DNA from: Acidobacteriota bacterium
Lineage (GTDB): Bacteria; Acidobacteriota; Terriglobia; Terriglobales; Acidobacteriaceae
Length of the DNA stretch: 64,000 nucleotides
Direction of reading: 5' to 3'
Assembly: GCA_016196065.1 (NCBI GenBank)
Contig: JACPYL010000012.1
Coordinates: forward strand, 682,001 to 746,000
The notes below the pieces were generated by a model, which saw only the letters and a program-made list of their open reading frames with translations, ran no database searches and was not told where the DNA came from. A program made the position numbers and the translations under genes. This document shows, piece after piece, positions 6,064 through 64,000 of the stretch (position 1 is the stretch's first letter; each line of letters starts with the position of its first letter).

Positions 6064-6251
6064 CGCTATACTCACGTCCCGGGCAGACGTCCGCCATTAC
6101 CTCCGTACCGAGCTACGTAGACAAAAATTTTCAATAAAAATGTTGCAGCTGTAGAAATTTCCCGTAATCTCATACATGCGAACCAACTTCTCCGCAATGC
6201 TCGGGAAATCGCTGGACACCCGGGAGCCGCGTTCACGTCAAGGGAGACGCG

Positions 6252-7724: not shown

Positions 7725-7753
7725 ACGCGGAATCCAATTCAACCTATTACCGT

Positions 7754-7777
7754 AGAGACGCGGCCTGCCGCGTCTCT
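7754..7777 (+). terminator. Intrinsic terminator after the APC permease, member of a hairpin repeat family
   Basis: An 11-bp perfect stem (AGAGACGCGGC against GCCGCGTCTCT, loop CT) is followed by TTTATTTT. Related GAGACG..GGC hairpins occur at 19232-19254 and 39621-39642, so this terminator may derive from a dispersed repeat. Confidence 0.75.
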
Positions 7778-7838
7778 TTTATTTTGATGCAAGTCCTCCC
7801 AATAGAAATCGGACTCTCGTGTTGTACAGTAATGGGCA

Positions 7839-9314: not shown

Positions 9315-9395
9315 AGAAGCATTTCAGCACTCAGCACTGACCAAACGGAGCGGCGACAGGGCACGGGTTGGCTGAGTGCCGACTGCTGCCTCTCC

Positions 9396-48310: not shown

Positions 48311-48319
48311 TTGCTGCGA

Positions 48320-50773
48320 ATGATTGTTGTTCGTCAGTTGATGTGCGTTAGCCTCGCGGTCGCAATATTTGCACTGTGCGCTTGCGGCGGGGGCTCTGGC
48401 GGGTCAGGTGGAGGCGGTGGGGGAGGTGGCGGCGGTAGTAGCCCGACAATCAACCGTCTGGCACCTTCTAGCCTGATGGTGAATGTGCCGCTTGGCACTT
48501 TGCTTGTTACCGGGGCGAATTTCAAAGGTGATGCTCTGGTCGCGATTGACGGGCAGCCAGTACCAACCTTCCTATTCGACGCGCATACGCTGGAAGCCGA
48601 AATTAGTTCGGACTTTGACACTACCGCCGCTAACCATCAAATCACGGTACAGCAGAGCACTGGTACTTCCAACGCCATTCGTCTTGCGGTTTATGCGCCC
48701 CAGCAGGGTCCGTTTGTTATGAATGCGATCCCTGGTTTTCTGGTAGGCCCGGAGAGCAGTCCGCTCTGGATCGCGGTCGCTGACATTGAAGGTGACGGCT
48801 TCGCTGATGTGCTCATGCCCAACGATGTCCCGAACGGTTCTGGTGGGATTGCGATCTTGAAGGGCCGCTCGGATGGCTCCCTCGCTCCTGCTGCCGTCCT
48901 CTCGATACAGACTCCATACGCGCTTTTGATCGGCGATATTGACGGAGACGGCATCGCTGACCTGGTTTCGGTCACCCAAGTTGGGAACAACAGCCTGGTA
49001 ACAGTTCTGCGCGGCGATGGACACGGCAATTTCCAACCACTCGCCTCGTCGGAGGTGCCTTATCTCGGTGTCCTCATCACCGAGTATCTGTCGGACCTGG
49101 ACGGGGATGGACTCCTGGACCTCGTCGTCACGGGTGCGGACGGCTCAGGAGCAACTAGCGACCTGCAATGGCTGCGAAATACGGGTGGAGGGAACTTCTC
49201 TTCCGGAGTATCGCTGGCCACGATCAATACGTTCAGCTACTTCACTCTTGGCGACCTCAATCGCGACGGGAAGCCCGACATTGTTTATTCGACACAGACT
49301 TCGCCGACAGGTCCGATTGTTGTTCACACCTTGATGAATCTGGGATCGGGCCACTTCTCCGACAGCGTGACGCCTGGGCTCAACGGGGTCGGCGGCCTGG
49401 CTACTGTCGGCGACTTCAATCTGGATGGAATTCCAGACTTGGTGGTGCAGGCAGTTCAAAACACCGTTCTCCAGCTCTATTCTTTCGCAGGCAAGGGAGA
49501 CGGGTCGTTTCAGCAGCTTGGCAGCGTAACGATCTCCCCGCCTGGATATAAGGTCTATCAGCTTGTGGTCGGAGACTTCGACCATGATGGTTTCCCCGAC
49601 TTGGCTGGCACAGACGGCGAGACCGAGCCGTCGCATATTCTCTACTTGTTCGGCGACGGACGCGGAAACTTCACGCCCCAGCAAGTCGTCGGGCCACAAG
49701 GAGGTCCTTCTGTCACAGCAGACATCAACGGCGATGGCCTGCCTGACTTGATTGTCCCGGATCGTTTCAACTTCGTGTCGGTGGCGCTCGGGCGAACTGA
49801 CCGCAAGTTTCCCTCGGCACTTGCCTTGGCTCCGCCACTGGCTTCACCTCCGTATGCAGGCGACATCAATGGCGACGGCCTGCCCGAAATCTTCTTTGGC
49901 GGATTTCCCGACACTATCTTCGGGAATGTCTTTCAGAACCAAGGCCACAATGCATTCCAGTTGGCAGCCAGCACAGACCCGCGTGGTTTCATGGTGGCGG
50001 ACCTGACGGGAAGAGGCGTGGTTGATCTGATCGGATTTTCAGACAGCGGAATGATTATCTGGCCAAACAATGGGAGTTTCAATTTTTCGTCGTCCCCGAT
50101 TACCCTGCCACCGATCAGCGGCCCAATCATGATTGCTGACATGGACGGTGATGGGCACCCTGACATTGTTGGCTCTGGTCAAATCTTCTTCGGCAACGGA
50201 GCGTACCAGTTCACGCCGGTTGCCACGCAAAACATTTCTTCTGGACCCTATCTCATTGGCGATTTCAACGGCGACGGCAGGCTGGATATTGCTATCGGCG
50301 GAGCGACCTTGCTCAATGCAGGCAATCGGACATTCAATCTTGTGACCAGCGAAGCGCTACCACTGGTCAACGGAGCAGTCGCTGCTGTCGCAGACTTCAA
50401 CGGAGACGGCAAAGACGATGTCGCGATCTCTGACGGCGGACAAAGCGTGGGTATCTTTTACAGCCAAGGTGACGGCACTTTTTACGTGGCCACCGAACTC
50501 GACACAGGAGGATTTGTAGGCGGAGTGGCGGTGGGAGACTTCAATGGCGATGGCCGCATCGATATTGCGGCGGGTCTGATGTTCGCCCAACAGGCAGTGA
50601 TTCTGTTCAACAATGCCAACGGCCAGTTCAGCCGGTCTTTCTTTGCTTCTGGGGCAGATACCGCGTCAATGACCTCTGCCGACCTTAATCACGGCGGGAA
50701 GAGCGACTTGATTTTCTCGAACTTTGAATTGGACTTTCGGCCGCCCAATGCGAATGTGGTGTTTCACAAGTAG
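48320..50773 (+). CDS. Lipid-anchored FG-GAP/VCBS repeat protein
   Basis: The protein (817 residues from the ATG at 48320; a TTG at 48311 adds three) has a signal peptide and lipobox FALCAC followed by a glycine/serine linker. An IPT/TIG-like domain (about 45-135, INRLAPSSLMVNVPLGTLLVTGANF) precedes about 14 FG-GAP-type repeats with calcium-binding DxNGDGxxD loops, for example VGDFNGDGRIDI. These form one or two seven-bladed beta-propellers. It is likely outer-surface exposed and adhesive. It is the first gene after the left att repeat. Confidence 0.88.
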   Translation: MIVVRQLMCVSLAVAIFALCACGGGSGGSGGGGGGGGGGSSPTINRLAPSSLMVNVPLGTLLVTGANFKGDALVAIDGQPVPTFLFDAHTLEAEISSDFDTTAANHQITVQQSTGTSNAIRLAVYAPQQGPFVMNAIPGFLVGPESSPLWIAVADIEGDGFADVLMPNDVPNGSGGIAILKGRSDGSLAPAAVLSIQTPYALLIGDIDGDGIADLVSVTQVGNNSLVTVLRGDGHGNFQPLASSEVPYLGVLITEYLSDLDGDGLLDLVVTGADGSGATSDLQWLRNTGGGNFSSGVSLATINTFSYFTLGDLNRDGKPDIVYSTQTSPTGPIVVHTLMNLGSGHFSDSVTPGLNGVGGLATVGDFNLDGIPDLVVQAVQNTVLQLYSFAGKGDGSFQQLGSVTISPPGYKVYQLVVGDFDHDGFPDLAGTDGETEPSHILYLFGDGRGNFTPQQVVGPQGGPSVTADINGDGLPDLIVPDRFNFVSVALGRTDRKFPSALALAPPLASPPYAGDINGDGLPEIFFGGFPDTIFGNVFQNQGHNAFQLAASTDPRGFMVADLTGRGVVDLIGFSDSGMIIWPNNGSFNFSSSPITLPPISGPIMIADMDGDGHPDIVGSGQIFFGNGAYQFTPVATQNISSGPYLIGDFNGDGRLDIAIGGATLLNAGNRTFNLVTSEALPLVNGAVAAVADFNGDGKDDVAISDGGQSVGIFYSQGDGTFYVATELDTGGFVGGVAVGDFNGDGRIDIAAGLMFAQQAVILFNNANGQFSRSFFASGADTASMTSADLNHGGKSDLIFSNFELDFRPPNANVVFHK

Positions 50774-50837
50774 CTATCCCCGCCTCTATAGTCCCGAAAT
50801 CGCGAACAACAGAGTGCACCGTCTCTCACTTTAAGGT

Positions 50838-51266
50838 TTACGGCAGAGCCCAAGTTGAACCATCCTCGAACTCAACCTGCGTTACAACCAAACTCGCTCT
50901 CCTCTTCTGCACGCACTCCAGTTTTTCGTCCACTATGCTGTCAAGAGTACCCGATGTAATTGTGCTCCCAGAATCAATTTGAATCGCCACTGCAGGAAAC
51001 AGGTGTCGGATGCTAAACGCGCCCTTCGCACGGAGCGCACACGCGAGTCGGTATCCAGCAATTCGTCTTTCGGAAGTATTTCTCAAGTCGAAACCATTTC
51101 CATAGGTCGTCAGCTTCAAGGGGCACGTTCTTGTATTAATTGACCACGATTTGGGTTGAGGTACAGGTAGTACACCCGACTCTTTTGTTTGTCCGTACAA
51201 ATGGCTCATGGGCAACATAAGAGAGCCGATCTGGCTGATCATCACCAACAGCATTGTCCGTTTCAT
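50838..51266 (-). CDS. Small exported protein next to the RHS gene (possible immunity)
   Basis: The 142-residue protein has a signal peptide (about 1-25, VMISQIGSLMLPMSHLYGQ) and two cysteine-containing segments, RTCPLKLT and YRLACALRAKG. It starts nine bases after the RHS stop and is clearly cotranscribed with it. No family recognised. Its position right after a polymorphic-toxin-like gene suggests an immunity role, with export to the compartment where the toxin would act; this is inference from layout only. Confidence 0.7.
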   Translation of the reverse strand: MKRTMLLVMISQIGSLMLPMSHLYGQTKESGVLPVPQPKSWSINTRTCPLKLTTYGNGFDLRNTSERRIAGYRLACALRAKGAFSIRHLFPAVAIQIDSGSTITSGTLDSIVDEKLECVQKRRASLVVTQVEFEDGSTWALP

Positions 51267-51275
51267 CGCACAGTC

Positions 51276-54200
51276 CTATTTTGGGCTTGGGTTGTCTTGA
51301 ATCAATTTTTCCTGTACTTCTTTTTCAGCGTCTTCCTCTGTCATCGAGTTGGGTTCTTTGCCGGAGTTCTCGACGCTGGCGGCATCATTCTCCATTCTGT
51401 CCTGAACCGCTTTGTCCCCGTGTTGATATTGCTTGGCGTCTTCCGGCGAGTCTTCTATTTGAACTCCGTGGTGGATCTCATGGCGGGTAACGGCCGATTG
51501 GTCATCCTTATAGTCTCCACCCAATCGCGTTAGGTCAAAGCTGATTGTGTTCTTCTTCAGATCAGCCTTCCCGTCCTTGTTGGTTTCGATCTTAGGATCA
51601 TTCGTGCCGAGCACAGTGTGCCAAATTGGTGTTCCGGGGACCTGGCTATCCTTCGATCGAAGGTCCTTATTGCCTATTTCGTGAACGGTCTTGCTGTCAG
51701 ACAGTTTGTTGAAGTCCTTTCGGAACGACTCCTTCATATATTCTTTAGCGATCATCTTTACGAGCTGATCGTACTGCTGTCCCTGTAGGGGTGTACGAAC
51801 CTCACGCCCGTCCGGGTCGACAAATGCGAGGGGATTGTTCCTGGTGTACGAGTACATGTTCCACTGCTGAGGATCACGGACTCTTTGTTTCGTGATGCTC
51901 TTCGGATCGGCAGAATTGAACCGAGCCATACCTGACCCGTAGTACCGCGCACCGAGGTAGTCTAGGCCAGATTCGGAATCCCGTTCTTTACCCGTGAACT
52001 TGTAGTTCTGGGCACAGGTATTTGTGTAGGCGTGTTCCCCGCCAAAAGGTTCGAAATCAGCGTCGTAGCAGAACACCGTCTGCCCTCCCTGAACGATCGC
52101 TCGTGAGGTGCCCAGTTGGTCCGCCAGATAGTAAAACACATTGTTCGACGAATCACGCCGGGCGATGCGATTTCCGCCAAAGAACACGTATTCATTGAAA
52201 CTGCCATTTGTGACGCTTCCCGTCAGATCGGTTTCGTCCAAAACTTCGCTGCCTGCATACCAGTAAATCTTGCTGCCAGACTTTTCCACTCGATTGCCGT
52301 CGCCATCATAGATGTACTGGGTACTCGAATTCGAGGTCGAGGTCATCTGGTTTTCGGTGTTGAATACATAGGTAGCCCCGCCCGTGCCCGGTATGGTCAT
52401 CAGGTTCCCGGCAGCGTCGTAGGTGTCGGTGGAAATCTGGTTCTTCGTGGTCACGCTGACGCTGAGACTCCCCTGCGTGCATCCAGTGTAGGCCGACGAC
52501 GACCCGGCAATCGAGAGTAGGTTGCTCCAGTTGCCAGTGGAATCGTAGCCGAATGCCTGCCCCCAGCAAAGGGTGGGATCGCTGGCGTGACTCCCCGTGG
52601 TTTGAGCGGTCGAGACGCGATTCAACTGATCGTAGGCGAACGTCTGGCCGCGGCCTGAAACGCGATTGTTCGCGATGCTGACAGGATTCCCGTTGTCCGT
52701 TCCAAGGTTGAAGTTGTATTTCAGGTCCAGCATGTTGGCGGTGGTCGCCGTATCTGTGCATAGACGACTGGTAGCCAGGGCTGTTCCAGTGGTTGAATAC
52801 ATCCAGCAGGGCTGGAGCCGCTTGTTGTAGATATGAGTAGACACCAGCGATGTCCCGTTCTGGAGGAGCGCCGTTGCCCCTTGCGGCGCGTAGCAGGCCC
52901 CATTCCCTAGGATGCCGTTGGCACAGGTGCCCGTTGCGTAGTAGACGCTCGTAGTGTTGTCCTTGGCGTTGCTCAGGCGTCCGGCAGTATCGGGCGTGTA
53001 CGTGATGATGCGCCCGCTGGGATAGGTCAGAGTGGCTACTGAGCTATCGAGATTGTAGGTGTAATTCGTAGTCTTGGTTTTCGTGGCGGTCGTACGTGAC
53101 TGGACAACGGTTCGTCCCACTTGATCGTATGCCCAAGACTCCGAACCCGCCGGGTCCGTCATCCCGGTGCGATGCCCAATGTTGTAGCACGAGGCCTGCC
53201 CCAGACAGCCGCTCCCGTCATAGGTGTAGGTCGCGACGGGAGTGGACATAGTGCCTGCGGTACATGCCTGCACTCCATATCCCTTGGCCGTCAGCCGATT
53301 CAGCGAGTCATAGCAATAGCTAATCGCTGTGGTGGTAGCCGGATTGGTCTGGTTCTGCAACGGGGTTGTCTTGGTGGTCACATCCCCGTCGGCGTCGTAG
53401 GTATACGCCAGATGGCCGGATTCTGGATTGTCGGCAGTGAGGATGCGCGATAGTGAATCATACGAAAAGCTGCGTGCGCGGGAACCGGCTTGAAGGACGC
53501 CTATGAGGTTGCCCAGCGTGTCGTAACCGTATGTCGTGACCCAGATTGGTTCACTGGTTCCAGGACAGCCGTTAGCGTTAACGGTTGCCGTCGTCGAATT
53601 GGGCTCGTCCACTTCAATCAAACGGCCTAATCCGTCAACGATGCTACGTCGCCAGTGGCCTGCTTCATCGGTAACCAGGGTCGAATTTCCACAATACGCC
53701 GTCTTAAGAAGCGAGCCATCTGCCTGGGTGACCTGCGTCCCGCGGTGCAGGGCATCATAGGCGTTGGTGGTAATTCCGTATGTCGTGTCGGATGTCGTGC
53801 GATACGGATTCGTGGTAGTGGACTTGTTTCCCGCTGCATCGTAGGTATCGTCGGCATAGACGACGCCCTCGGGATCGGAATTTAGCTGGGTATGCGCCAG
53901 CCTTCCCATGCCGTCCACGATGGCAGTAGCGGTCTCGTTGACCGTGCTCGTGATCGCCTTTGTAATCACGACTTGATACGGTGCGCTGCCTTGACTACAC
54001 GTGGAACCGCCAAGGTCGGTGTAGCAGAACGACGTTTGCCCGCCGCCCGCCGGGCGGCTGACGTTCGTCAGACGAGAAACTACGTCGTAGCTGTTCGTGG
54101 TGATTTGACCGTTCGGGTCGGTGGTCGAGATTAACAACCCCGTGTTGTAGTCGTAGTTGGGATAGCTGCTCTGGTTTAACGCGTTTTTGATCTGAGTCGC

Positions 54201-56030
54201 ATACGCGCCTTGGAACGTGCTCGAATATTGGTAGGTCGTTGGATTGAGCAAAGGGTCTTTGGCGACAGACGGCATTCCAGTGTCGTAGTACGTCGTGGTA
54301 CTGGTCAGGGTTTGCACCGACGGCAGATTCCGCCAGCGATTCACGGAGGTCCGATTTCCACGATAGAGACCTGTCCAAGGTGCGGTATCGAGATTCTGAG
54401 CGGCACTCATTCCCGAGGCAATCGTGGCCGTTTCGTCGTACCCGTATTGGGTGAACGCCTTTTGACTCGTCCCGTCCGTGATCTGGCTTGAGTAAACCAG
54501 ATTCAGCATGTTGTTGCTGAGATAGTTGGAAAAGTGCGGATTGGGGCTTTGCCAGACGTAGCTGGTGTTCGTTTGGCGTAGCAGAGGCCCCGGCACGCCA
54601 GAGCTAGTGCCGTAGTCGTATTCTTTTTGCGTTATGACTTTGCCGTAGAGCCCGGTGTAGCCTGCCCCGCTCCCTGTGGGGTTTGGAAAGGTGAACCCAG
54701 AATCGTAGCTCATGGTTACTTGGCTGGTCTTGCCATTTGCCCAGGTAGTAGTCGTTTGGGTTGGCAATATGTTCATGTAGATTGCAGGTCCTCCCGGGCC
54801 ACCAAATGGACCAAGGGTACTGGCGTATGTTGTTGAAACAGTCTTGAGCAGGTTCGCGGCTAGGACAGCGCCTTGGTAGTACTGGACTTTTGTCGTGTAG
54901 AGGGAACAATTGGACAAAAGGGTATTCGTATAAACAGTGTTATTCCCAAGGGGGTCGGTGACAGTGGGATTGGAACTAGCGGAATACGTCCAAGTATGGT
55001 TTCCGGTTCCATCGTTGGCGTTTACTGTCCGCGAAGCTACTGCACGGGGGTCGATTAGCGAAGTTGAACAACCGGCTCCGTCGCGCCACGCATAAGAGAT
55101 CGTGCCTCCAGTAGGAAATGTAATCTGAGTAAGATCAGCATTTCCGTCGTTGCTATATTGAAATATCCAGGCAGTGCCGTTCGGCAGTACTACACTCTGG
55201 AGGTAGTTCGCATTCCGAGTCTGCTGTGTTCCTTGGGTTATGTTGTAGGAGAAAATCTCAGTGACCTGCGCCCAACAGAACCAAAACGTCTGCGATCCAC
55301 CATTTGGCCCGGGTATCACCCATTGAGCAGATAAATTGACCGGGAGCGGGCCGCTTGGACAATTGCCTGGCCCACTGGATCCTAATGACGAGGATGGCGG
55401 ACTGGCTATGGACCTACCGACCGTATCCGTCACACTGAGCTGATTTCCGTTGGCGTCTTCCGATACTCTGTTCCCGTCCGCATCTGTGACGACCGGGCTT
55501 CCGCTCGTGGGAATGTAGGCTTGTATCGCGGTTCCATCCACGGTTTCATAGTTCGTTGAGGTTAGTGCTGCCAGTTGATGGCTGGCCCCATCGGGGGTGG
55601 CCACGGAGTAGCTCGTGAACTTAAGATTTCCGAAATTGTCGTTAACTGGTGCGGACTTAATTGCAAACGCTCGCTCGGGGAGTGGCATTAGCCCCCCTGC
55701 ACCATTGAAGAAAGGAAATGATGTGTCCGGGACCATGAACATGGTACAGCCGTTCATGTTGCAAATGTTTTTTTGCTTAAATGGCCTTCTGTTATAGATG
55801 AGCTTAAATCCTAGCTTTAGGTTCCCGCGCTGCGGGTAAGAACCCAGCGGAACGTCTACAATCAGATTCCCGTTTGTCATGCTCACGGAATCAATCTCAC
55901 CGCCACGATAGCTTCCATAGGCTTTGATTCCCAGTTGAATGTCGTCGGGGTCTTGTGCTACTGATTTGACATTTAAAATAAGGACACTAACAAAAATTAT
56001 CCCGAGATAGAAGGCGGTTCGCCAAGTCAT
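51276..56030 (-). CDS. Secreted RHS/YD-repeat protein with zincin-like C-terminal tip
   Basis: The 1584-residue protein has an N-terminal signal peptide (LGIIFVSVLILNVKSVAQ), a region with wall-associated beta repeats, and many YD repeats (YDGDGNRVEK, YDALNRL-like) through about residues 650-1350. The RHS core end is LDYLGARYYGSGMARFNSADP and NPLAFVDPDG. After it a unique tip of about 176 residues (1409-1584) begins REVRTPLQG. The tip holds HEIHH at 1517-1521, in the context TRHEIHHGVQ, an HExxH zinc metallopeptidase motif, with an acidic C-terminus. RHS shells often enclose toxin tips; this one may be a protease. It overlaps the upstream gene by four bases. Confidence 0.93.
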   Translation of the reverse strand: MTWRTAFYLGIIFVSVLILNVKSVAQDPDDIQLGIKAYGSYRGGEIDSVSMTNGNLIVDVPLGSYPQRGNLKLGFKLIYNRRPFKQKNICNMNGCTMFMVPDTSFPFFNGAGGLMPLPERAFAIKSAPVNDNFGNLKFTSYSVATPDGASHQLAALTSTNYETVDGTAIQAYIPTSGSPVVTDADGNRVSEDANGNQLSVTDTVGRSIASPPSSSLGSSGPGNCPSGPLPVNLSAQWVIPGPNGGSQTFWFCWAQVTEIFSYNITQGTQQTRNANYLQSVVLPNGTAWIFQYSNDGNADLTQITFPTGGTISYAWRDGAGCSTSLIDPRAVASRTVNANDGTGNHTWTYSASSNPTVTDPLGNNTVYTNTLLSNCSLYTTKVQYYQGAVLAANLLKTVSTTYASTLGPFGGPGGPAIYMNILPTQTTTTWANGKTSQVTMSYDSGFTFPNPTGSGAGYTGLYGKVITQKEYDYGTSSGVPGPLLRQTNTSYVWQSPNPHFSNYLSNNMLNLVYSSQITDGTSQKAFTQYGYDETATIASGMSAAQNLDTAPWTGLYRGNRTSVNRWRNLPSVQTLTSTTTYYDTGMPSVAKDPLLNPTTYQYSSTFQGAYATQIKNALNQSSYPNYDYNTGLLISTTDPNGQITTNSYDVVSRLTNVSRPAGGGQTSFCYTDLGGSTCSQGSAPYQVVITKAITSTVNETATAIVDGMGRLAHTQLNSDPEGVVYADDTYDAAGNKSTTTNPYRTTSDTTYGITTNAYDALHRGTQVTQADGSLLKTAYCGNSTLVTDEAGHWRRSIVDGLGRLIEVDEPNSTTATVNANGCPGTSEPIWVTTYGYDTLGNLIGVLQAGSRARSFSYDSLSRILTADNPESGHLAYTYDADGDVTTKTTPLQNQTNPATTTAISYCYDSLNRLTAKGYGVQACTAGTMSTPVATYTYDGSGCLGQASCYNIGHRTGMTDPAGSESWAYDQVGRTVVQSRTTATKTKTTNYTYNLDSSVATLTYPSGRIITYTPDTAGRLSNAKDNTTSVYYATGTCANGILGNGACYAPQGATALLQNGTSLVSTHIYNKRLQPCWMYSTTGTALATSRLCTDTATTANMLDLKYNFNLGTDNGNPVSIANNRVSGRGQTFAYDQLNRVSTAQTTGSHASDPTLCWGQAFGYDSTGNWSNLLSIAGSSSAYTGCTQGSLSVSVTTKNQISTDTYDAAGNLMTIPGTGGATYVFNTENQMTSTSNSSTQYIYDGDGNRVEKSGSKIYWYAGSEVLDETDLTGSVTNGSFNEYVFFGGNRIARRDSSNNVFYYLADQLGTSRAIVQGGQTVFCYDADFEPFGGEHAYTNTCAQNYKFTGKERDSESGLDYLGARYYGSGMARFNSADPKSITKQRVRDPQQWNMYSYTRNNPLAFVDPDGREVRTPLQGQQYDQLVKMIAKEYMKESFRKDFNKLSDSKTVHEIGNKDLRSKDSQVPGTPIWHTVLGTNDPKIETNKDGKADLKKNTISFDLTRLGGDYKDDQSAVTRHEIHHGVQIEDSPEDAKQYQHGDKAVQDRMENDAASVENSGKEPNSMTEEDAEKEVQEKLIQDNPSPK

Positions 56031-56833
56031 CGCGATCCTCCCTGCGGATCGAAAGTATTCGGGGAGACACCTGAATTGAAAGTGACCGCACCGATGCTAA
56101 TAACCTCACTTGACGAGTCGTTAAAGTAGGAAATCGTCTGTGGGATCATCACACTGTTGACTACAACGAATTGCGACATGTCATAGGTTGCAGTTTCGTA
56201 ACTGGCTGCGTTCTCATTGGCTGGCTCACGAACCTGGACTCGCACCGGCAGAAACGAGACCGGATCGAAATACCATTCCTGCGGCGTCACGAGCGTTCCC
56301 ATCGGGTCCGAATCGTCGCTGATATGAACCTGAACAACCTTTGCGCCATTCAGGGAGACAACGCCAATGTATTTAAGCGTATATACAGGATTGTTCAGTT
56401 CTTGTAGCAGCACATACGGCGGCAGGTAAAAAGGGAGATTCGCCCTCGCCATGTAGGGATTTAGAGAGGAGGTCTTTCTCTTAAAAATCCAGGCGGGTGA
56501 GCCATGCCCACTAAGGAAAACATTGGTCCCTCCATCCGCCGTGGCTACCTCTATTCGAAATTCGCTCGCTGCGGTCGTCCAGGTAAATGATCTATTCGTG
56601 CCATCGCTGTTTAGTATTGACCCGGTCACAACGCAGTCCTGAATAGCCGCCAAAGCATCAGCGCCGCCAGAAGCAGCGACGGCACTCTGCAAAGTCTTGA
56701 TAGCCGCATTGTCACGCTGAGGAGTTGCGGCAAGCGCTGGTATGGCCAGTCCGATGATGACAACGATCACGGCGATGGCAGATACCGCCATATAATTGGT
56801 TTTCCTCGAATCTGTAATAGCTAAATTCGTCAT
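56027..56833 (-). CDS. Exported or membrane-anchored protein upstream of the RHS gene
   Basis: The 268-residue protein has an N-terminal hydrophobic segment (YMAVSAIAVIVVIIGLAIPALA) that could be a signal peptide or anchor. The rest is strand-rich (DCVVTGSILNSDGTNRSFTWTTAASEFRIEV) with the layout of a LolA-like, lipid-binding type fold, but I cannot assign it. Its stop overlaps the RHS start (ATGA), so the two are translationally coupled. It may help export or assemble the RHS protein; that is context only. Confidence 0.75.
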   Translation of the reverse strand: MTNLAITDSRKTNYMAVSAIAVIVVIIGLAIPALAATPQRDNAAIKTLQSAVAASGGADALAAIQDCVVTGSILNSDGTNRSFTWTTAASEFRIEVATADGGTNVFLSGHGSPAWIFKRKTSSLNPYMARANLPFYLPPYVLLQELNNPVYTLKYIGVVSLNGAKVVQVHISDDSDPMGTLVTPQEWYFDPVSFLPVRVQVREPANENAASYETATYDMSQFVVVNSVMIPQTISYFNDSSSEVISIGAVTFNSGVSPNTFDPQGGSR

Positions 56834-57045
56834 GTCTGGTTCCTTTCCATCAGCGTGCTCGCTTGAGGCATGGTGACCTGATGGGTCTTATCAGAGGACT
56901 TGCCAGCGAGGGTGCCCAGAACAATCGGGCGGTCAAGATGACCTTCAGAAAGCGCGAGGGAGCAAATTCCAGCCGGTGGCTTTGTCATCTTGTTCCATTC
57001 CGCCACTAGCTGTGACGGCATTCGGAAGTTCTCTACCCTCAGCAA
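56830..57045 (-). CDS. Possible 71-residue leader protein of the RHS operon
   Basis: The frame ends four bases inside the next gene (ATGA-type overlap), as its neighbours do. The product is basic and hydrophilic with no family match. Codon use is unremarkable and there is no strong ribosome site, so it may be spurious. The 220 bases upstream (57046-57265) contain no gene and probably hold the promoter of the RHS operon. Confidence 0.4.
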   Translation of the reverse strand: MLRVENFRMPSQLVAEWNKMTKPPAGICSLALSEGHLDRPIVLGTLAGKSSDKTHQVTMPQASTLMERNQT

Positions 57046-57261
57046 GTCACGCCTCCCGCGCCCCCTCAGGGCGGGATTTGTTTGTTGGGTAGACTCGCCA
57101 AACTACGCGCTACATCAGGGAAGTGTCAAGTACGAAACCAGACACGGTCAGTTCTTTACACACCATTCACCAACAGCCGATAGTGTTCAGACACCGCCAT
57201 CGGTCTAGCAGTCTTTGGTTAAAGGACAGTCGATTTCCCGCGTGAAGGATACGCGGATACT

Positions 57262-57285
57262 AACGTTACGTACGTACGTAACGTT
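57262..57285. repeat. Perfect 24-bp palindrome at the 3' end of the ImmA-like gene
   Basis: The sequence reads AACGTTACGTAC and its exact complement. The core alternates ACGT. It encodes the last residues (YVRT) and stop of the ImmA-like gene. No T-run follows in the gene's direction of transcription, so it is not a typical terminator. Confidence 0.75.
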
Positions 57286-57877
57286 GGCGGTCGATTTCGG
57301 CGGCGATGTTTTCCATCTGAGGCAGAAAAATACAATCAAAAAAATAAGCGACACCGAAAACAGCTATAAGGGAATAAGCAATATAGCGAGGCCATTTCCT
57401 TTCCACACTTCTGGCCATTTTAATAAAAGCGGGTAATTCACGTTCAGCTGCTTTCATTCGGCAGGACATCGCAAAATGCTCGGCGTGCTCTTCCAAGTCC
57501 TTCGGACCGATAGTTGGCTGTCCAAGTTCACCAAACTCGTGTTCGATCATCTCCCGAAATTCATGTAAGAGAGTGTGCAGGTCAGAAAATGGAGCCATCG
57601 CAGTTTCGCTTATGACAATTTCCCTCTTATCTTGAAATGTGCAATTAACGCCGCGAACATCTTTTGGAAGGGATACAAAGGATAGATTCACGCCTTTGGA
57701 GCGGCACAATTCCTTCATGGCGTCTTTTGTGAGAAAGGAACTTAAGCCCAGCCAGTTTACAAACTGTCGTGCCAAGACTTCTTCTGCGGGTGGCCAGTTC
57801 TCGCCATGTTCGGAAATTACGGTCAGACAAAAACCCAAGAGTGGTTTTTTCTCACTTCCATCTGTGAGTAATTGCAC
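57266..57877 (-). CDS. ImmA/IrrE-like metallopeptidase with C-terminal membrane helix
   Basis: The 203-residue protein has the ImmA layout: LLHEFREMIEHEF at about 105, followed by EEHAEHFAM in the place of the conserved EANRFA segment. The usual zinc motif HExxH reads HEFRE, so the second zinc histidine is missing or moved to the next His in IEHEF. A hydrophobic segment at about 170-190 (YIAYSLIAVFGVAYFFDCIFL) would anchor it to the membrane. ImmA-type proteases cleave a partner XRE repressor; the XRE gene lies four bases upstream. Confidence 0.72.
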   Translation of the reverse strand: MQLLTDGSEKKPLLGFCLTVISEHGENWPPAEEVLARQFVNWLGLSSFLTKDAMKELCRSKGVNLSFVSLPKDVRGVNCTFQDKREIVISETAMAPFSDLHTLLHEFREMIEHEFGELGQPTIGPKDLEEHAEHFAMSCRMKAAERELPAFIKMARSVERKWPRYIAYSLIAVFGVAYFFDCIFLPQMENIAAEIDRQRYVRT

Positions 57878-57881
57878 GATT

Positions 57882-58277
57882 TCAGGCCCCTTTCAGCAGG
57901 CTTCGTCGCGTTAACTTCTCGTACATTTCCACAATAAAGCGCTTCGTTTCCAGACTGACGTGCGTTCCCTTTAGCCGAGTACCCTGTTTAAAGGTGGGGT
58001 CAGTCCTGACGTGTTCGTATGCTTCCTCGATCTGCCTTCTCTTGGCGGTTTCCGCCGAATCCTCTTCCAGGTACCCGGCTGCAATCAAAAGCTCACGATG
58101 CTCCACATCGTAGGACTTCGCCAGCCGTTTCAAAATGTCAGGGTGCGGCGGTCTGCGCAGTCCCCGCTCGATCTGAGAAATATAGGCATTCGAGACTTTG
58201 GCCTGGGTTTCGACCTGTTTTAAGGTCAAACCCCTCGATTTCCGCAATCGGCGCATGTAGCTTCCGAAGGTTTCCAT
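57882..58277 (-). CDS. XRE-family transcriptional repressor of the island
   Basis: The 131-residue protein has an N-terminal HTH_3 domain (about 5-65: YMRRLRKSRGLTLKQVETQAKVSNAYISQIERGLRRPP) and a helical C-terminus. It pairs with the ImmA-like gene behind it, as in ICEBs1 ImmR-ImmA. It is transcribed away from the excisionase/integrase operon, and an inverted repeat lies in the shared intergenic region, so it probably represses that operon until its partner protease or another signal removes it. Confidence 0.88.
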   Translation of the reverse strand: METFGSYMRRLRKSRGLTLKQVETQAKVSNAYISQIERGLRRPPHPDILKRLAKSYDVEHRELLIAAGYLEEDSAETAKRRQIEEAYEHVRTDPTFKQGTRLKGTHVSLETKRFIVEMYEKLTRRSLLKGA

Positions 58278-58330
58278 AGCTCATCCATCATAGCACGATA
58301 TTAACAATTGCAAGAGTATTCGTTGTGGTG

Positions 58331-58388
58331 TTGACAGGCCGGTGAGCGTATTGCACAATCAATACTGTTGTTAGATTGTGTTAACAAC
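58331..58388 (+). promoter_or_regulatory. Promoter and operator of the recombinase operon
   Basis: TTGACA (58331-58336) is followed after 17 bases by CACAAT (58354-58359), a weak -10. Downstream, GTTGTTA (58367-58373) and TAACAAC (58382-58388) form a 7-bp inverted repeat with an 8-base spacer. A related TTAACAAT lies at 58301-58308, closer to the XRE gene. This suits an XRE repressor controlling both directions. Confidence 0.5.
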
Positions 58389-58400
58389 TGGAGTGCTCAC

Positions 58401-58775
58401 TTGCCTCTCACCTTGACTCCACAACCGGCGCTGTTTCCTTGTCCCCTCTGCGCCAAGGGCCTCGACGTGCGCCAGACCAAGAAAAAGAAGCCGTACGTTA
58501 TCTGTGATCCTTGCGGCGTCCAATTGTTTATTCGCAGCAAGGCTGGAATGCAGACCTTCAACCACCTGGTCGCAGATGCAGAACAGCGCAACATCTGGAA
58601 GAGGCTGAACGATTTGCAGGCTCGGTATCTTCGAAAGTGCCCGGACTGCAAGAAGGACTTTTGGATTGTCCCCGACCAGCTTAAAACCAGCTGGGTGGAC
58701 GGCAAGTTTGAGGGATATCGCTGCCCGGAACGCGGATGCAAGGGCGTTGCTGGTTGGGAAAAAGAGAAAAAATGA
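58401..58775 (+). CDS. Small zinc-ribbon protein in the recombinase operon
   Basis: From the TTG at 58401 (TGGAGTG just upstream) the protein has 124 residues. A TTG at 58368 would extend it but lies in the operator. Two zinc-ribbon-like pairs are visible: CPLC with CDPCG, and CPDCKKDF with CPERGCKG. Such proteins occur in phages and islands; function unknown. It overlaps the next gene by four bases. Confidence 0.7.
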   Translation: MPLTLTPQPALFPCPLCAKGLDVRQTKKKKPYVICDPCGVQLFIRSKAGMQTFNHLVADAEQRNIWKRLNDLQARYLRKCPDCKKDFWIVPDQLKTSWVDGKFEGYRCPERGCKGVAGWEKEKK

Positions 58776-58906
58776 AGATCACAATGCTTGGAGTGCTGGG
58801 CTTCATCGCGATTGCTACGCTGCTGGTCTATGCCGGATATGAGTTGGGCAGAATGCCAGAGAAGCCGCAGTCACCACTGAATCCCACGTTGCCGCCGAAC
58901 TCATGA
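58772..58906 (+). CDS. 44-residue single-helix membrane protein
   Basis: The short frame (ATG at 58772 overlapping the previous stop, TGA at 58904) encodes a hydrophobic helix, MLGVLGFIAIATLLVYAGYELG, and a proline-rich tail. The overlaps with both neighbours make it a convincing real gene despite its size. Function unknown. Confidence 0.65.
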   Translation: MKITMLGVLGFIAIATLLVYAGYELGRMPEKPQSPLNPTLPPNS

Positions 58907-59166
58907 CCACAACGCCGTCACAAGTCGATGCAGGTTTGACTACCGAATGGTTCACGGCTGCCGAGGCCGCTCTATATCTCAAAGTCAAGGTTCGCACACT
59001 CTTGCTCTGGGTCCGGCAAGGCAGAGTGAAAGCGTTTGCACTGTCCGGCATAAAACGCCACGTGTGGCGCTTCCGTCAGCGAGACTTGGACGCTGCCCTT
59101 CTGGGATCTCCCGTGCTACTCTGCCAGACGCCATCCGTGCGCCCTGCGGAAAGGACGGAGCAATGA
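58903..59166 (+). CDS. Excisionase-like DNA-binding protein (HTH_17)
   Basis: The 87-residue protein has the short winged helix of excisionases (EWFTAAEAALYLKVKVRTLLLWVRQGRVKAFAL, then KRHVWRFRQRDLDAAL). It precedes the recombinase gene with a four-base overlap (ATGA), the typical xis-int layout. It would bend DNA at the att sites and direct excision. The tail after residue 65 is unordered-looking. Confidence 0.85.
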   Translation: MTTTPSQVDAGLTTEWFTAAEAALYLKVKVRTLLLWVRQGRVKAFALSGIKRHVWRFRQRDLDAALLGSPVLLCQTPSVRPAERTEQ

Positions 59167-60290
59167 AAAGGGCAGCACGGCACAAAACGGGAAGTGTAGT
59201 TTTCGACAAAAGACGCAAAACGTGGAATTACTTATGGTGGGAGGACGGCCAAAGGCGGTCCAAGCAGATTGGCACCCTGAAAGAGTTTCCAACCAAGGGT
59301 GCTGCTTGGCACTCCGCTCAGTCCATCCAGGCTGAGGCTTTCGAGCCACTGGCTAGCTCAAGCAAAGTGGAAGGAACCACGGTGAGAGCACTGGCAGAGC
59401 GTTACGAGCAGGATCGATTGCCTTCGCGCCATTCCACGGCGCGGATGTATCGTTCCTGGTTGCGTAATCACATCTTGCCTAAATGGGGTGACGAGTCGAT
59501 TCGCGCTATACAACCACGAGCAGTCGAACTGTGGTTGCGAGAGTTGGATTTGTCGCCCAAAAGCAAGTCTCATGTGCGGGGCATGTTGCACCTGCTCATG
59601 GAGTTTGCCATGTGGAGCGGAGCACTGGAAATTTCGCGAAATCCCATTGATCTTGTCGTAGTCAAAGGGGCGACCAAGCGTACACGCCAACCGCGTAATC
59701 TCACTGTGGATGAGTTCCGAAAGTTTGTGAAGCATCTTGAGGAACCCTTCCGCACAGTTGCGCTGCTTTCGGTGTGTTTCGGTTTGCGAATTAGCGAATG
59801 TCTGGCTCTGAGGTGGAGTGACGTGGACTGGTTGAACGGCAAGTTGCGAATTGAACGGGCAATTGTCCGGCAACATGTCGATGACGTGAAAACAGTCTAC
59901 TCGCAGAAACAGATGAGCATTGATCCCGAACTATTGGCAAGGCTGAAAGCGTGGAAACAACTTTCACAGTTCTGCGCCGAGGGAGATTGGCTCTTTGCAT
60001 CTCCGGTTCAGCTTGGACGCTTGCCCTGGTCCTACCCTTGGATTTTAAGGGTCTTTCACAAGGCAGGCGACAAAGCCGGGATCGGTAAACTGCCAACTCA
60101 CACCCTGCGCCACAGCTATCGTTCGTGGCTCGATGCCGTGGGAACATCAATCGCCGTGCAGCAGAAGCTGATGCGACATAGCGACATTCGCACGACCATG
60201 AATCTTTACGGAGATGTGGTCACGGATGAGATGTCTCAGGCTCACTCCAAGGTAGTTGGCTTGGCACTCGCACCACAAAGTTCCAACTAA
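59163..60290 (+). CDS. Tyrosine recombinase (island integrase)
   Basis: From the ATG at 59163 the protein has 375 residues; an upstream start at 58947 would run through the excisionase gene in another frame. An N-terminal arm-binding segment (KTWNYLWWEDGQRRSKQ) precedes the SAM-like domain and the catalytic domain: Arg in FGLRISECLALRW, HTLRHSYRSW, MRHSDIRTT and the nucleophile Tyr in MNLYGDV. It integrates DNA at the 3' end of the adjacent tRNA-Ser gene, 46 bases downstream. Last gene of the operon. Confidence 0.95.
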   Translation: MKRAARHKTGSVVFDKRRKTWNYLWWEDGQRRSKQIGTLKEFPTKGAAWHSAQSIQAEAFEPLASSSKVEGTTVRALAERYEQDRLPSRHSTARMYRSWLRNHILPKWGDESIRAIQPRAVELWLRELDLSPKSKSHVRGMLHLLMEFAMWSGALEISRNPIDLVVVKGATKRTRQPRNLTVDEFRKFVKHLEEPFRTVALLSVCFGLRISECLALRWSDVDWLNGKLRIERAIVRQHVDDVKTVYSQKQMSIDPELLARLKAWKQLSQFCAEGDWLFASPVQLGRLPWSYPWILRVFHKAGDKAGIGKLPTHTLRHSYRSWLDAVGTSIAVQQKLMRHSDIRTTMNLYGDVVTDEMSQAHSKVVGLALAPQSSN

Positions 60291-60334
60291 CGGATTGCAG
60301 GTGCGGATTGCAGTTCGCGTAAATCCTTGAAACT

Positions 60335-60429
<95 letters not shown>

Positions 60430-60450
60430 GACCTTTTTAAAACGTGGGAC

Positions 60451-61554
60451 TTACGCGGAACTGCTCGACTCCTCGCGGCCTGCATTCGCGGGCCTATTCA
60501 CGGCCCGCTCCAGCGTTTGCATTGCGGCTTCGACTTTCGGGTCACGCACCTTCACGTATCTATCCCTCGTAATCGAAACCCGGCTGTGCCGGAGGATTCG
60601 CTGTACCACTTTATCACTCACTTCCAACTCAAACAAATTCGAGGCGAGTCCGCGCCGGAACGAATGCCACCCGCGCCACGTCAAACCGACCGTCTTCATT
60701 GCGGCCTTGATAGGCCCGCGTCCGGCATTCTCTAGAGACTCGGAGAACAGACGCCCAGAGACGGGAGCGGAGCGGCGATACTCATTCAGTATATCGCGGA
60801 GCGCGGGAATGACCGGAACGAAGCTGCCGGATGCCTTGGACTTCGGCGGAGAACGATAACCGCGCCACTCCGTCTCTTCGACCGTAAGCGCGTCGTCCGC
60901 GTAACAGTCCCACGTCAGCCCTTGAATCTCCGCGAGCCTGAGCCCAGCGTACCCGGCGATAGCGACCGCTGCCCGGTGTTCCAGGGTGAGGAGAGGAAGG
61001 ATTTGCTCAATCTCCTCCAGTGTGTAGACGCCGGTTTCCCGCGAAGCCAGAGCGCGGGCGGGAAGGAATACCCCGGTCACTGGGTTCGCCTCCGTATAGA
61101 AGCCGTAATTGCGAGCGTGGTTGAAGATCACGCTGAGGAAGGCTTTGAGGTGCGAGTACGTGGTGCGCCGGAGTGTTCGTTTGCGATCTGCTGCAATCTC
61201 GTTGAGCAACTGCTGAATGTGATACGGACGGATCACCCACAGCCGGATTCCAGCGCGTTCTTTTAGGTATCGCTCGAACAGCCCCTTATACCCGGCATAG
61301 GTGGATGGGCGAAGGCGCGGCTCCACTTCGGGAAGGTAGTGATGCTCAATGTAGTTCGCGAGCGTCATGCCCAAACGGTCTGCATCGACGGCGAGCCGCA
61401 GGCGGGCGCGTTCTTCCTCAGCCCTTGGGCGAATCAGCCGCAGGGTAGGGAAGTCCTCTAGACGACCCAGCCAAATCTTCTTGCGCTTTTTCCCTTCGTA
61501 GTAGCGGAGGTACCACGCGCCGTGATCCTTTGTGAGAGTTCCGTTCTGACCCAT
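60451..61554 (-). CDS. Second tyrosine recombinase, beside the tRNA-Ser 5' end
   Basis: The 367-residue protein has an N-terminal arm-type segment (GAWYLRYYEGKKRKKIWLGRLEDFP), a SAM-like core domain (about 85-170) and a catalytic domain with Arg in AGLRLAEIQGL, HSFRRGLASN, LRHSRVSITRDRYVKV and the nucleophile Tyr in RDRYVKV. It is not closely similar to the island integrase. It lies 22 bases upstream of the tRNA 5' end on the same strand, so it probably belongs to another element extending to the right. Its AGGAG site before the ATG is good. Confidence 0.93.
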   Translation of the reverse strand: MGQNGTLTKDHGAWYLRYYEGKKRKKIWLGRLEDFPTLRLIRPRAEEERARLRLAVDADRLGMTLANYIEHHYLPEVEPRLRPSTYAGYKGLFERYLKERAGIRLWVIRPYHIQQLLNEIAADRKRTLRRTTYSHLKAFLSVIFNHARNYGFYTEANPVTGVFLPARALASRETGVYTLEEIEQILPLLTLEHRAAVAIAGYAGLRLAEIQGLTWDCYADDALTVEETEWRGYRSPPKSKASGSFVPVIPALRDILNEYRRSAPVSGRLFSESLENAGRGPIKAAMKTVGLTWRGWHSFRRGLASNLFELEVSDKVVQRILRHSRVSITRDRYVKVRDPKVEAAMQTLERAVNRPANAGREESSSSA

Positions 61555-61605
61555 GTGTACTCCTTAGTAAACAGCCGGGAGATCATAGCGCGGATCGTTG
61601 AGAGG

Positions 61606-61923
61606 TCAAAATCGTCTATACCGAGCGATATTTTCTTTGCGCACTCCTATCTTCCGCGCTCTACGCTGCCAATGCGGGCCGTGACCGGGTGAGCCGAGAG
61701 CGTGCGCAATCTCGTGGCGTATCACGTCACGGATTAACGACCAAGGTGCCCGCTCAATAAGCTCCTCATCGAGAAGAATGGCCTGCACATCGTATTCACA
61801 CTGGCCCAAAATTTTTGTACCCGGTTCGCTCGGTATCGGCTGAATCGCAACAACCCAACCGGCCACGTCTAGGCCGTACTTCGCCAAGAGACGCCACGCG
61901 TAGTTCCACGCACGATCTTCCAT
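61606..61923 (-). CDS. SprT-like zinc metalloprotein
   Basis: The 105-residue protein carries HEIAHAL and a following HGPHW, the metal-binding pattern of SprT-like (WSS1/Spartan-type) metalloproteases. The N-terminal part is strand-helix (DVAGWVVAIQPIP). It starts with a strong GAGGAGG. Its small size suggests a minimal catalytic core. It is upstream of the recombinase in the same direction. Confidence 0.85.
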   Translation of the reverse strand: MEDRAWNYAWRLLAKYGLDVAGWVVAIQPIPSEPGTKILGQCEYDVQAILLDEELIERAPWSLIRDVIRHEIAHALGSPGHGPHWQRRARKIGVRKENIARYRRF

Positions 61924-61986
61924 GTTGCCTCCTCGTCCTTGAAGGAATAGAAGCGCCCCAGCGCGAAGTCGAGGCGCTTGGTGGGG

Positions 61987-62238
61987 TTAGTTGGCGAACT
62001 GTTGCTTGCGAATCCGGTCCGCGTCCGCTACCCGTTCTGGAAAAGGCGGGAAAGCGTATACAACATCCACGGCGGCTTCGAACAGCTCAACGATTCGTTC
62101 ATCAGTGATGTTGAACGAACGAGCGCGGCTAGCGGCTCTATAGAGGAGACGATCTAACTCCTCATCCACAGCGCATTCGTTACAAGAAAAGTTAGGCATG
62201 TCAGACGGACGTTCTTCACAAAAGGGACAGATTGGCAA
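61987..62238 (-). CDS. Small zinc-ribbon-like protein
   Basis: The 83-residue protein begins with a TTG at 62238 (AGGAGG nine bases upstream). It has CPFCEERP and SCNEC, enough for one zinc ribbon, and a long helical segment, EELDRLLYRAASRARSFNITDERIVELFEAA. Function unknown. It seems to be cotranscribed with the SprT-like gene. Confidence 0.7.
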   Translation of the reverse strand: MPICPFCEERPSDMPNFSCNECAVDEELDRLLYRAASRARSFNITDERIVELFEAAVDVVYAFPPFPERVADADRIRKQQFAN

Positions 62239-62519
62239 TTGAATCCTCCTTTAGAGCGCCGTCGCGACGATGGATTCGGAGCGCGAGCGGGCGCAATACG
62301 GCCTAGTTTTTTGGGGTTTTTGGCGTAGCAGGTAGTCCGCTATGACCAGTTGAATCGGGACGAGCAGCGCCAGACTCTGGAGAACTGCGTTCTGGCTTGA
62401 GCGGTATAGGCTCCCGTAGGAAGCTCAGTGACCAGTTACAGATTGTCACACGAACTTACTCACGTCAATGACAAAGATTGTCAAGGTCGAAGCAAAGGAC
62501 GGTGGTGACTTAGAGCCGC
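62239..62519. other. Intergenic segment with no certain gene
   Basis: There is no supported gene. A 38-codon plus-strand frame (62468-62584, MTKIVKVEAKDGGDLEPPKNP) exists, but it overlaps the end of the next gene and has no ribosome site. CCCGTAGGAAGCTCAGTG near 62413 and the T-rich GTTTTTTGGGGTTTTTGG near 62308 may be parts of a promoter or terminator. Confidence 0.3.
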
Positions 62520-62960
62520 CTAAAAACCCAGTTGTCTACAAAGCGCCAGAAGATTGGTCATTCCTCGTTCCGCCAGATAGTTGAGCAAAGCTTCTCTGGG
62601 AGGTTGATTGCTGCGATAGGGAGTGCTGCTCGGACCTGTATAGCGACCGCCTCCCGGTCCCGTGTAGAGCCCACCGCCCGGTCCCGTATACAGTCCTCCA
62701 CCTGGTCCTGTGTACATACCGCCTCCAGGCCCAGTGTAGAGTCCTCCACCGGGCCCAGTGTAAAGACCTCCGCCCGGACCCGTGTACATACCGCCTCCGG
62801 GTCCGCTATACATTCCACCGCCCGGACCTGAGTACGCTCCACCACCGGGACCGGTGTACATTCCACCGCCCGGACCTGTATACAAGCCTCCGCCCGGTCC
62901 AGTGTAAAAATCGCGCGGCCAAGTACCTTCTTCATCCTCATTCCTATTACGCATATACAA
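62520..62960 (-). CDS. YTGPGGG tandem-repeat protein
   Basis: The 146-residue protein has a short charged head (MYMRNRNEDEEGTWPRDF), eleven copies of an eight-residue unit YTGPGGGx (x mainly L or M; two copies have YSGPGGGx) plus a degenerate twelfth, and a C-terminal domain of about 32 residues (PPREALLNYLAERGMTNLLALCRQLGF) that looks helical. The repeat is low-complexity and glycine-rich and could be flexible or phase-separating. The family is found as unannotated proteins in several bacteria, as I recall; no function is known to me. Confidence 0.85.
   Translation of the reverse strand: MYMRNRNEDEEGTWPRDFYTGPGGGLYTGPGGGMYTGPGGGAYSGPGGGMYSGPGGGMYTGPGGGLYTGPGGGLYTGPGGGMYTGPGGGLYTGPGGGLYTGPGGGRYTGPSSTPYRSNQPPREALLNYLAERGMTNLLALCRQLGF
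62643..62906. repeat. 24-bp tandem repeat array coding for YTGPGGGx
   Basis: Eleven 24-bp units in frame, differing by synonymous or conservative changes. There are no spacers, so this is not a CRISPR array. The repeat lies wholly inside the gene 62520-62960. Confidence 0.85.
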
Positions 62961-63093
62961 ACACTCCTCAGCTTGTTATGATAACACAGCGGCGAACAAA
63001 TGCCGAAAGACTGTGGCGGTCACTTAACAACACTTACTGATGACCTTCACAATTCCTGACGTGGGTACGCGCCAATATGTTCTGGTCAATTGA

Positions 63094-64000
63094 GTGACTG
63101 ACGAATTCAAAGAGATTGCCCATAGCGGCGGTCGCCTCACTATCCGTATAGGAACGGACGACAAGAATCGACGAGGCTACCAGTTAAGTTGGCATCACGA
63201 ACGGCCTGTGGCAGCAGGCATCTTTGCCGTGTACGCTCTTCCCCAAGGAGTCGCGGTTGGACAAATGGATCTCGGAGGAATTGGATCTGTCCCTAATCCG
63301 CCTCCCGTTCGAGGGTGTTTTCAAGTCTTCATTGGCTCGGACAGCGAGGGGAGATACGGTCACGAATGCCCCCTCTGCCAAGGCTACTGGAGAGATCGAG
63401 CGGGAACTCACTTCTGTCCGTATTGCGGTGTCCGTCAAGAAGTACACAACTTTTTGACAAAAGCGCAGAGGTCATACGTTGAGCAATACTGCGCAAAGAT
63501 GCGGGAAGTTCTGGAAGCTGACGTGGACGGAGACTATGTAATTGACATGGACGCGGTTGCGGATGCCGCTGGGAAGGACGGAGAGAAGCCGCCTTTCTAC
63601 TACACCGAGGAGAGCCAACAAAACAAATTCGACTGCAATGCTTGCGGCGCTTTCAACGACATTCTCGGCAAATTTGGATACTGTTCGCGTTGCGGTACGA
63701 GGAACGATCTACAAGAACTAGGCGACAAGATCATTCCCGCGCTACGTGAGCGGATCAATTCCGGCACCGGAGCCTTTGAGACGTGCGTCAAAGAAGTCGT
63801 CGCAGCGTTCGACTCGTTTGTTGGTCAATATGCAGCGCAACTCGTGAATCTTGTTCCACTGACGCCGGGTCGCAGGAACAGACTGACAGAACGACGGTTC
63901 CACAATTTAGAAAACGTCGCAGCGGACATTAAAGAGATATTTGATATTGACATACTCGACGGGATCGACGCTGCCGATCTAGCGTTTGCCAAGCTGATGT
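63094..64000 (+). CDS. Double zinc-ribbon protein, truncated by window end
   Basis: A GTG at 63094 opens a frame that runs to the window edge (302 codons). It has a strand-rich N-terminal domain (about 1-85), a first zinc ribbon CPLC/CPYCG (about 91-113), a helical segment, a second zinc ribbon CNACG/CSRCG (about 179-198) and then a long helical region ending FHNLENVAADIKEIFDIDILDGIDAADLAFAKLM at the edge. It starts divergent from the YTGPGGG gene. The helical tail resembles HEPN-type domains in layout, but the diagnostic RxxxxH motif would lie beyond the window, so no family is claimed. Confidence 0.7.
   Translation, partial: MTDEFKEIAHSGGRLTIRIGTDDKNRRGYQLSWHHERPVAAGIFAVYALPQGVAVGQMDLGGIGSVPNPPPVRGCFQVFIGSDSEGRYGHECPLCQGYWRDRAGTHFCPYCGVRQEVHNFLTKAQRSYVEQYCAKMREVLEADVDGDYVIDMDAVADAAGKDGEKPPFYYTEESQQNKFDCNACGAFNDILGKFGYCSRCGTRNDLQELGDKIIPALRERINSGTGAFETCVKEVVAAFDSFVGQYAAQLVNLVPLTPGRRNRLTERRFHNLENVAADIKEIFDIDILDGIDAADLAFAKLM

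Follow-up and report, generated by a model that had tools for sequence, protein, structure and literature searches.

Accessory genes are a known feature of P2-like prophages, with old and tin as examples, and the parts of one report drawn on here describe a cI-int hotspot in P2-related phages of Vibrionaceae (PMC9122126). We set against such systems a small gene from the window, by which we mean the whole 64,000-nucleotide stretch of Acidobacteriota DNA analyzed, that encodes a protein made largely of YTGPGGG repeats. The repeat gene is well shown to be a mobile cargo of phages, phage-satellite-like elements and plasmids. Our literature searches found no description of a YTGPGGG-repeat family, and with neither a Pfam nor an NCBIfam match to hand we could not find that the family has been described before. 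It is unusual for an eight-residue unit to stay near-identical, in set number and register, over ten phyla and on phages and plasmids in a protein that has no match in Pfam or NCBIfam and no paper that our searches found.

The repeat gene lies on the minus strand at 62520-62954 and encodes 144 amino acids from an ATG at 62954, or 146 from a TTG at 62960 (ORF 62520-62960), with the ATG appearing the likelier start and GAGGAG standing upstream of it. Just upstream of the gene, a promoter-like site on the same strand (62978-63006, TCGGCA-17-TATCAT with a TG ahead of the second hexamer) is a match to consensus only. The protein runs from a charged N-terminus through a WPRD cap into 11 full units of eight residues each (YTGPGGGx) and a partial 12th (RYTGPSST), ending in the C-terminal cap PYRSNQPPREALLNYLAERGMTNLLALCRQLGF. 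Counted from the ORF, the array occupies 62622-62909 (minus strand), with the full units at 62646-62909 and the partial one at 62622-62645, and Tandem Repeats Finder placed it at 62646-62906 with scores at periods of 24, 48 and 72. The cap and stop codon take up 62520-62621 (minus strand), where two helices are predicted. The eleven near-perfect glycine-rich units noticed in a preliminary description of this DNA are thus real, and so, by prediction, is its helical C-terminal domain; the repeats precede that domain, however, rather than flanking it on both sides. By eye the protein has no signal peptide. It had no Pfam match above cut-off (one sub-threshold match to DUF3432, E 0.13) and no NCBIfam match, being the only member scanned there, and a Pfam scan of five members (window, L077, L078, L081 and L091, where L numbers denote loci) returned only sub-threshold DUF3432 or DUF4774 matches.

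Comparison of unit with unit in the window gene gave a pS of 0.751 and a pN of 0.028, and eight other repeat genes chosen for this test gave pN/pS values of 0 to 0.09. Because synonymous divergence between units is high and nonsynonymous divergence low, the units are old, and their amino acids are what has been maintained, by selection on the protein. The same two values rule out a slippage artefact as the source of the array. One whole unit is missing from the gene of E. coli RM10466 (375 versus 399 bases), indicating that slippage does occur.

AlphaFold2 modelling of the window protein gave helices at residues 120-129 and 133-141 with block-mean pLDDT values of 87-94, and left the repeats unusable (block means 29-42). 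A second model, with the secreted L081 protein first, was of moderate confidence (mean pLDDT 72.8, pTM 0.46), and its early and middle repeats, with block means of 80-87, formed neither helix nor strand. This model had no match in PDB or BFVD at E 0.001, and the matches listed were short, most of them 20-25 columns. Sequence searches of PDB gave low-complexity matches only (the best to a rhoptry neck protein, E 2.6e-7), and the hairpin as query found designed proteins only. L081 carries one cysteine just before its W cap and another just before its SNxPP cap, the only two behind its presumed signal peptide; if they are paired, the ends of this one protein would meet.

The family shares a plan consisting of a W[P/V]R[D/N] cap, about 11 units of the form [LMA][YS]TG[PV]GGG, an alanine opening unit 4 and an SNxPP helical hairpin. 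Across 37 aligned members, no variation was seen at W12, R14 or P118-P119, and the alanine at the start of unit 4, Ala40, had a conservation of at least 90%. Of the 58 members parsed (L058 yielded none), 18 were set aside as near copies or cut sequences, and exactly 11 units were counted in 26 of the 40 remaining members and 10-12 in 35. Members came from a scan of named genomes (54 loci), an IMG/VR scan (4 relatives) and a DNA pattern search (13 IMG/VR stretches, 9 of them new records). Within the window's own phylum, 3 of 396 genomes matched: its own, that of a full member (G105) and a partial match that was not counted as a member. Among the own and related genomes 4 of 101 matched, the three besides the own one weakly. 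The gene occurs in 18 of 5426 E. coli genomes, and DNA of an E. coli relative's gene matched 21 of 72,556 plasmid records, all eight of those opened encoding the repeat protein, one without the N-terminal cap. By contrast, tblastn with the window protein found no match in the plasmid collection, and with L021 found C-terminal pieces only (E 0.4 or worse); low-complexity masking probably hides the family from protein searches. Members are present on IMG/VR viral contigs despite the absence of any match, by tblastn or DNA, among 50,697 phage records.

In the tree, 32 of 37 rows could be placed in ten phyla by NCBI titles, and four well-supported sister pairs cross phyla, joining Bacillota with Pseudomonadota (L037, L057), Ignavibacteriota with Pseudomonadota (L030, L032), Minisyncoccota with Acidobacteriota (L029, L044) and Pseudomonadota with Actinomycetota (L028, L034). 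As read from this tree, which was built from 140 mostly repeat columns and is weak in detail with 15 of its 34 inner branches open, the family has moved between phyla. The phylum labels need 15 changes on it, compared with a minimum of 9 and a shuffled mean of 19.9, indicating that the phylum signal is not wholly lost. The rows nearest to the window member are Bacteroidota, on a branch without strong support. Two IMG/VR members with signal peptides by eye, L077 (6014-6412, minus strand) and L078 (6938-7348, minus strand), have paired cysteines in CxGYTGPGGPCYTGPGGG and are without the SNxPP cap; a search for further secreted relatives returned the queries alone.

The preliminary description had placed the gene in an accessory region beside a recombinase, and both points were borne out. 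The window gene is the cargo of an element of about 11.0 kb bounded by a 40-nt direct repeat from the 5' end of tRNA-Ser, and its relatives sit on phages, on plasmids and near defence-type genes. One att copy (60391-60430, minus strand) comprises 39 nt from the start of tRNA-Ser(gct) and one further base, and the second lies in the same orientation beyond the window, at about 71435-71474 on the window scale. The recombinase is the tyrosine integrase of the element (60451-61554, minus strand, PF00589). Between it and the repeat gene are a gene for an SprT-like metallopeptidase (61606-61923, minus strand, PF10263, E 7.6e-9) and one for an 83-residue CxxC protein (61987-62238, minus strand), and elsewhere between the att copies are genes for DUF5906 and Terminase_6C proteins and one that occupies the small-terminase position. 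Among the element's ORFs, of which all but several small ones were scanned, no gene for a capsid or tail was seen, as would suit a phage satellite or a prophage in decay. Divergent from the repeat gene, a double zinc-ribbon gene (63094-64248, plus strand) runs past the window end at 64000 and is whole in another stretch of the same genome (L018), encoding 384 amino acids with two CxxC...CxxC pairs as had been described. It is not a conserved partner of the repeat gene, BLAST finding no relatives of it among the ORFs of 57 clustered loci. The protein also contains an RRHVYEHRGG motif that we take to be HEPN-like, with no Pfam or PDB support for a HEPN assignment. A search of 58000-64000 against Rfam found tRNA only. 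A second integrative element (48124-60358), with a tyrosine integrase gene (59085-60290) and an HTH_17 gene (58903-59166), appears to exploit this same tRNA-Ser at its 3' end, from which 23 nt recur at 48124-48146, so that two elements would flank a single tRNA gene. Inside this second element, 51276-56030 encodes a 1584-residue protein that is of RHS/YD-repeat type by eye.

In the four E. coli records opened, from the 18 genomes, the repeat gene lies between int and rcdA of P2-like prophages; one of the three records opened first is a plasmid with the prophage and its rcdA flank, the fourth is RM10466, and the LR-51 prophage has a full P2-type gene set. The five sibling prophages opened have an int of about 76% identity that stops some 100 bp from rcdA, and all five lack the repeat gene; a related int is present in 108 genomes. 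The repeat gene is thus an optional cargo, absent from otherwise alike P2-like prophages. When aligned with the siblings, the gene together with its flanks forms an additional stretch. Because sequence corresponding to the 3' end of int in the siblings stands behind the repeat gene, gain within the int-att interval appears likelier than loss. A stem-and-T stretch behind the gene looks terminator-like by eye. The int allele at 99% identity or above and the repeat-gene allele, including the one-unit deletion, were each found in 17 genomes, three of which were opened. In a P2-like phage, genes that follow cI and int in the same direction lie on the lysogen side, and P2 cI and int share one transcript. 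Since the E. coli repeat gene is on the same strand directly behind cI and int, the lysogen probably makes the protein. Between cI and int of E. coli P2-like prophages, L091 has an AAA ATPase and DUF4276 pair (6093-7826) that looks like a defence pair. As for annotation, RefSeq leaves the repeat gene of LR-51 unannotated, and in L091 (9001-9399) the annotated start is later, at 9035 instead of about 9001; the L090 gene spans 8998-9399.

Other phage and plasmid sites are varied. The parts of PMC9122126 drawn on here also give P2-like phages a gpA-gpQ accessory hotspot, and we take the site in L088, where the repeat gene lies directly behind a phage portal gene (PF04860), for one end of that hotspot by eye. 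In L017 the gene sits between terminase small-subunit-like and HNH-like genes, and in L060 and L087 it follows ordinary neighbours, a guaA-like gene and a phage tail-like gene (all four named by eye). The Weissella plasmid pJY33 (2,365 bp) has, in PLSDB's incomplete table, only rep and the repeat gene. On plasmids of E. faecium and Aerococcus, a YjzC gene (5782-5949 in both L094 and L095; Pfam match for L094) lies 51 bp upstream of the repeat gene. In L097, HTH and ImmA/IrrE genes are upstream at a distance of more than 600 bp.

Genes found upstream on the same strand with small gaps encode YaaC (L015, L047), an IetS-type subtilase (L020), PDC-S46 (L044), HTH and IrrE-Fic proteins (L038 and its group), a ResIII helicase (L035), an MqsA-HTH-Panacea protein (L059), an XRE protein (L040) and HEPN_Toprim_N (L066), and nearby genes include DUF4062 (L042), an Eco57I-type methylase (L069), a deaminase (L024), GmrSD_N (L062), DUF3800 (L032) and DUF5343 (L026). 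Several close neighbours, such as those upstream in L026, L029, L031 and L055, had no match at all. Neighbours were clustered over 57 loci, with near-duplicate and redundant loci omitted, and seven clusters reached three or more loci. HTH genes were present in 16 loci, IrrE genes (some with Fic) in 15, tyrosine integrases in 7, ABC proteins in 6 and serine recombinases in 5. A ZIP-like transporter (named by eye) and an unknown gene were each present in three, the latter in L047 at a distance of 7 kb and in L055 and L056, which are near-copies. With the largest cluster in 16 of 57 loci, a single conserved partner gene is ruled out. IrrE-Fic is not an obligate partner either: besides the query's own, all six homologues at 59% identity or above have a repeat gene downstream (five of their genomes having been picked for it), and none was found in the stretches examined around those of 36-39% (L115, L116 and L117, L116 ending at a contig end) or around Fic-only matches of 27-29% (L110-L112). 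The preliminary description would have been undercut by random genomic positions with no linked genes; there is indeed no single linked gene, but many of the sites are mobile-element or accessory slots.

Defence-type names turn up in any list of bacterial genes, so we tested for enrichment by running PADLOC (cut-off E 1e-5) on neighbours and control genes. The nearest gene matched in 7 of 20 loci, a gene some 5.5 kb distant from it at those loci in 5 of 20, and at most 6 of 37 control genes from the first 47.5 kb of the window did so, an upper bound since families were reported. The enrichment was not significant (Fisher p 0.73 for near versus far, 0.18 for near versus control and 0.18 for near plus far versus control). 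The 20 loci were drawn from 46 pairs, whose selection had passed over 23 named loci and others that offered no suitable pair; 31 pairs had a G+C under 0.56, a limit set because our simple gene caller invents frames in G+C-rich DNA, and nine viral, plasmid or E. coli records as well as L050 and L072 were removed from these. The defence-type neighbours therefore represent a trend and not proof. A defence role, which had been raised as possible, is plausible by position (behind the portal gene in L088, downstream of cI and int in the E. coli prophages, and next to genes such as those for IetS, PDC-S46, a restriction helicase, the IrrE-Fic fusion and GmrSD_N) but is not backed by the enrichment test.

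Because of where the repeat gene sits, our best guess, held with a little less than even confidence, is an anti-phage or exclusion activity, for which we can only propose a mechanism. The repeats would form a single rigid, glycine-rich module whose length is set, its caps would provide a binding surface through which a rival phage or mobile element is excluded or aborted, and the toxin- or nuclease-like genes alongside may be optional partners or mere fellow cargo. We count in support of such a conflict tool the within-array selection in nine genes, the fixed plan, the cross-phylum pairs, the tRNA-bounded element, the optional prophage cargo, the site behind the portal gene in L088, the pJY33 plasmid with its two listed genes and the neighbours that have conflict-type domains; against it we count the non-significant PADLOC test, the ordinary-gene neighbours, the phage records without a match and the failed repeat fold. 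A more specific version, possible but doubtful, is a new single-gene immunity or exclusion protein, a non-helical, non-strand, fixed-length glycine-rich module with its caps maybe side by side, working by itself when carried by plasmids and phages but capable of joining diverse toxin or nuclease genes. Could the repeat protein instead be the toxin of toxin-antitoxin pairs, neutralised by varying antitoxins encoded just upstream? The MqsA-HTH-Panacea gene 15 bp upstream in L059, the XRE gene in L040 and the overlapping or nearly touching HTH and IrrE-Fic genes of the L038 group would suit this, and the sections of PMC10440598 used here present Panacea and ImmA as partner-swapping antitoxins in NetFlax. 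However, no antitoxin-like gene is annotated beside it in pJY33 or the LR-51 prophage, and other upstream genes encode integrases, a portal protein or an IetS-type protease, leaving a toxin improbable. We also consider it rather unlikely that the protein is a counter-defence cargo shielding its phage or plasmid from a host system: a single small gene on plasmids and phages is what one would see, but it also lies beside chromosomal defence-type genes, and its P2-like prophage position would be lysogenic rather than early-lytic.

Position next to integrases raises the further idea of a directionality factor helping integration or excision, given that the gene follows int in E. coli and L086, has int close by in the window, and is adjoined by convergent integrase genes in L029, L046, L048 and, by eye, L083. 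With an integrase cluster in only 7 of the 57 loci and sibling P2-like prophages having int without the repeat gene, we regard such a helper as highly improbable. GPGGX-type repeats are silk-like, and secreted relatives exist (L033, L077, L078 and L081), both of which would speak for a silk- or adhesin-like structural protein. Silks are variable in length, unlike the fixed unit number and register here, and signal peptides are rare by eye, clear in one of the 58 parsed members (L033), so that this structural role is very unlikely for the family. It was rejected as the main reading for the window member, whose unit number is fixed and whose charged N-terminus by eye has no signal peptide; the suggested adhesion thus falls away there, even though some relatives are secreted. 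If the preferred anti-phage or exclusion activity is correct, the E. coli, Weissella and Bacillus members would be testable at once, and the fold would interest structural biologists.

Compared with known systems, the closest likeness is to the accessory genes of P2-like phages, which the repeat gene resembles in position (behind the portal gene in L088 and behind int in the E. coli members, one allele of which also lies downstream of an AAA and DUF4276 pair), in its lysogen-side orientation and in being a small optional cargo. The E. coli int-att slot is not among the hotspots described in the parts of PMC9122126 drawn on here, and is likened to them by position, orientation and cargo size. 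The Panacea/NetFlax network, as far as it is set out in the portions used of PMC8832971 and PMC10440598, is similar in having one small conserved gene beside many toxin- or nuclease-like genes. By contrast, the repeat protein has no Panacea domain by Pfam and can stand alone, the Panacea domain in L059 belonging to the upstream neighbour. YjzC (PF14168) is likewise a tiny glycine-containing protein, with GKYKEVGPRGG, but it has one such motif and no tandem array, so the two are set side by side by features and not by homology. Finally, the beta-flower folds (PF21784-PF21786), in what the consulted parts of PMC10584680 say of them, are also small bacterial proteins of repeated elements, whereas the repeat protein matches none of these three families and its moderate-confidence L081 model contains no strands.
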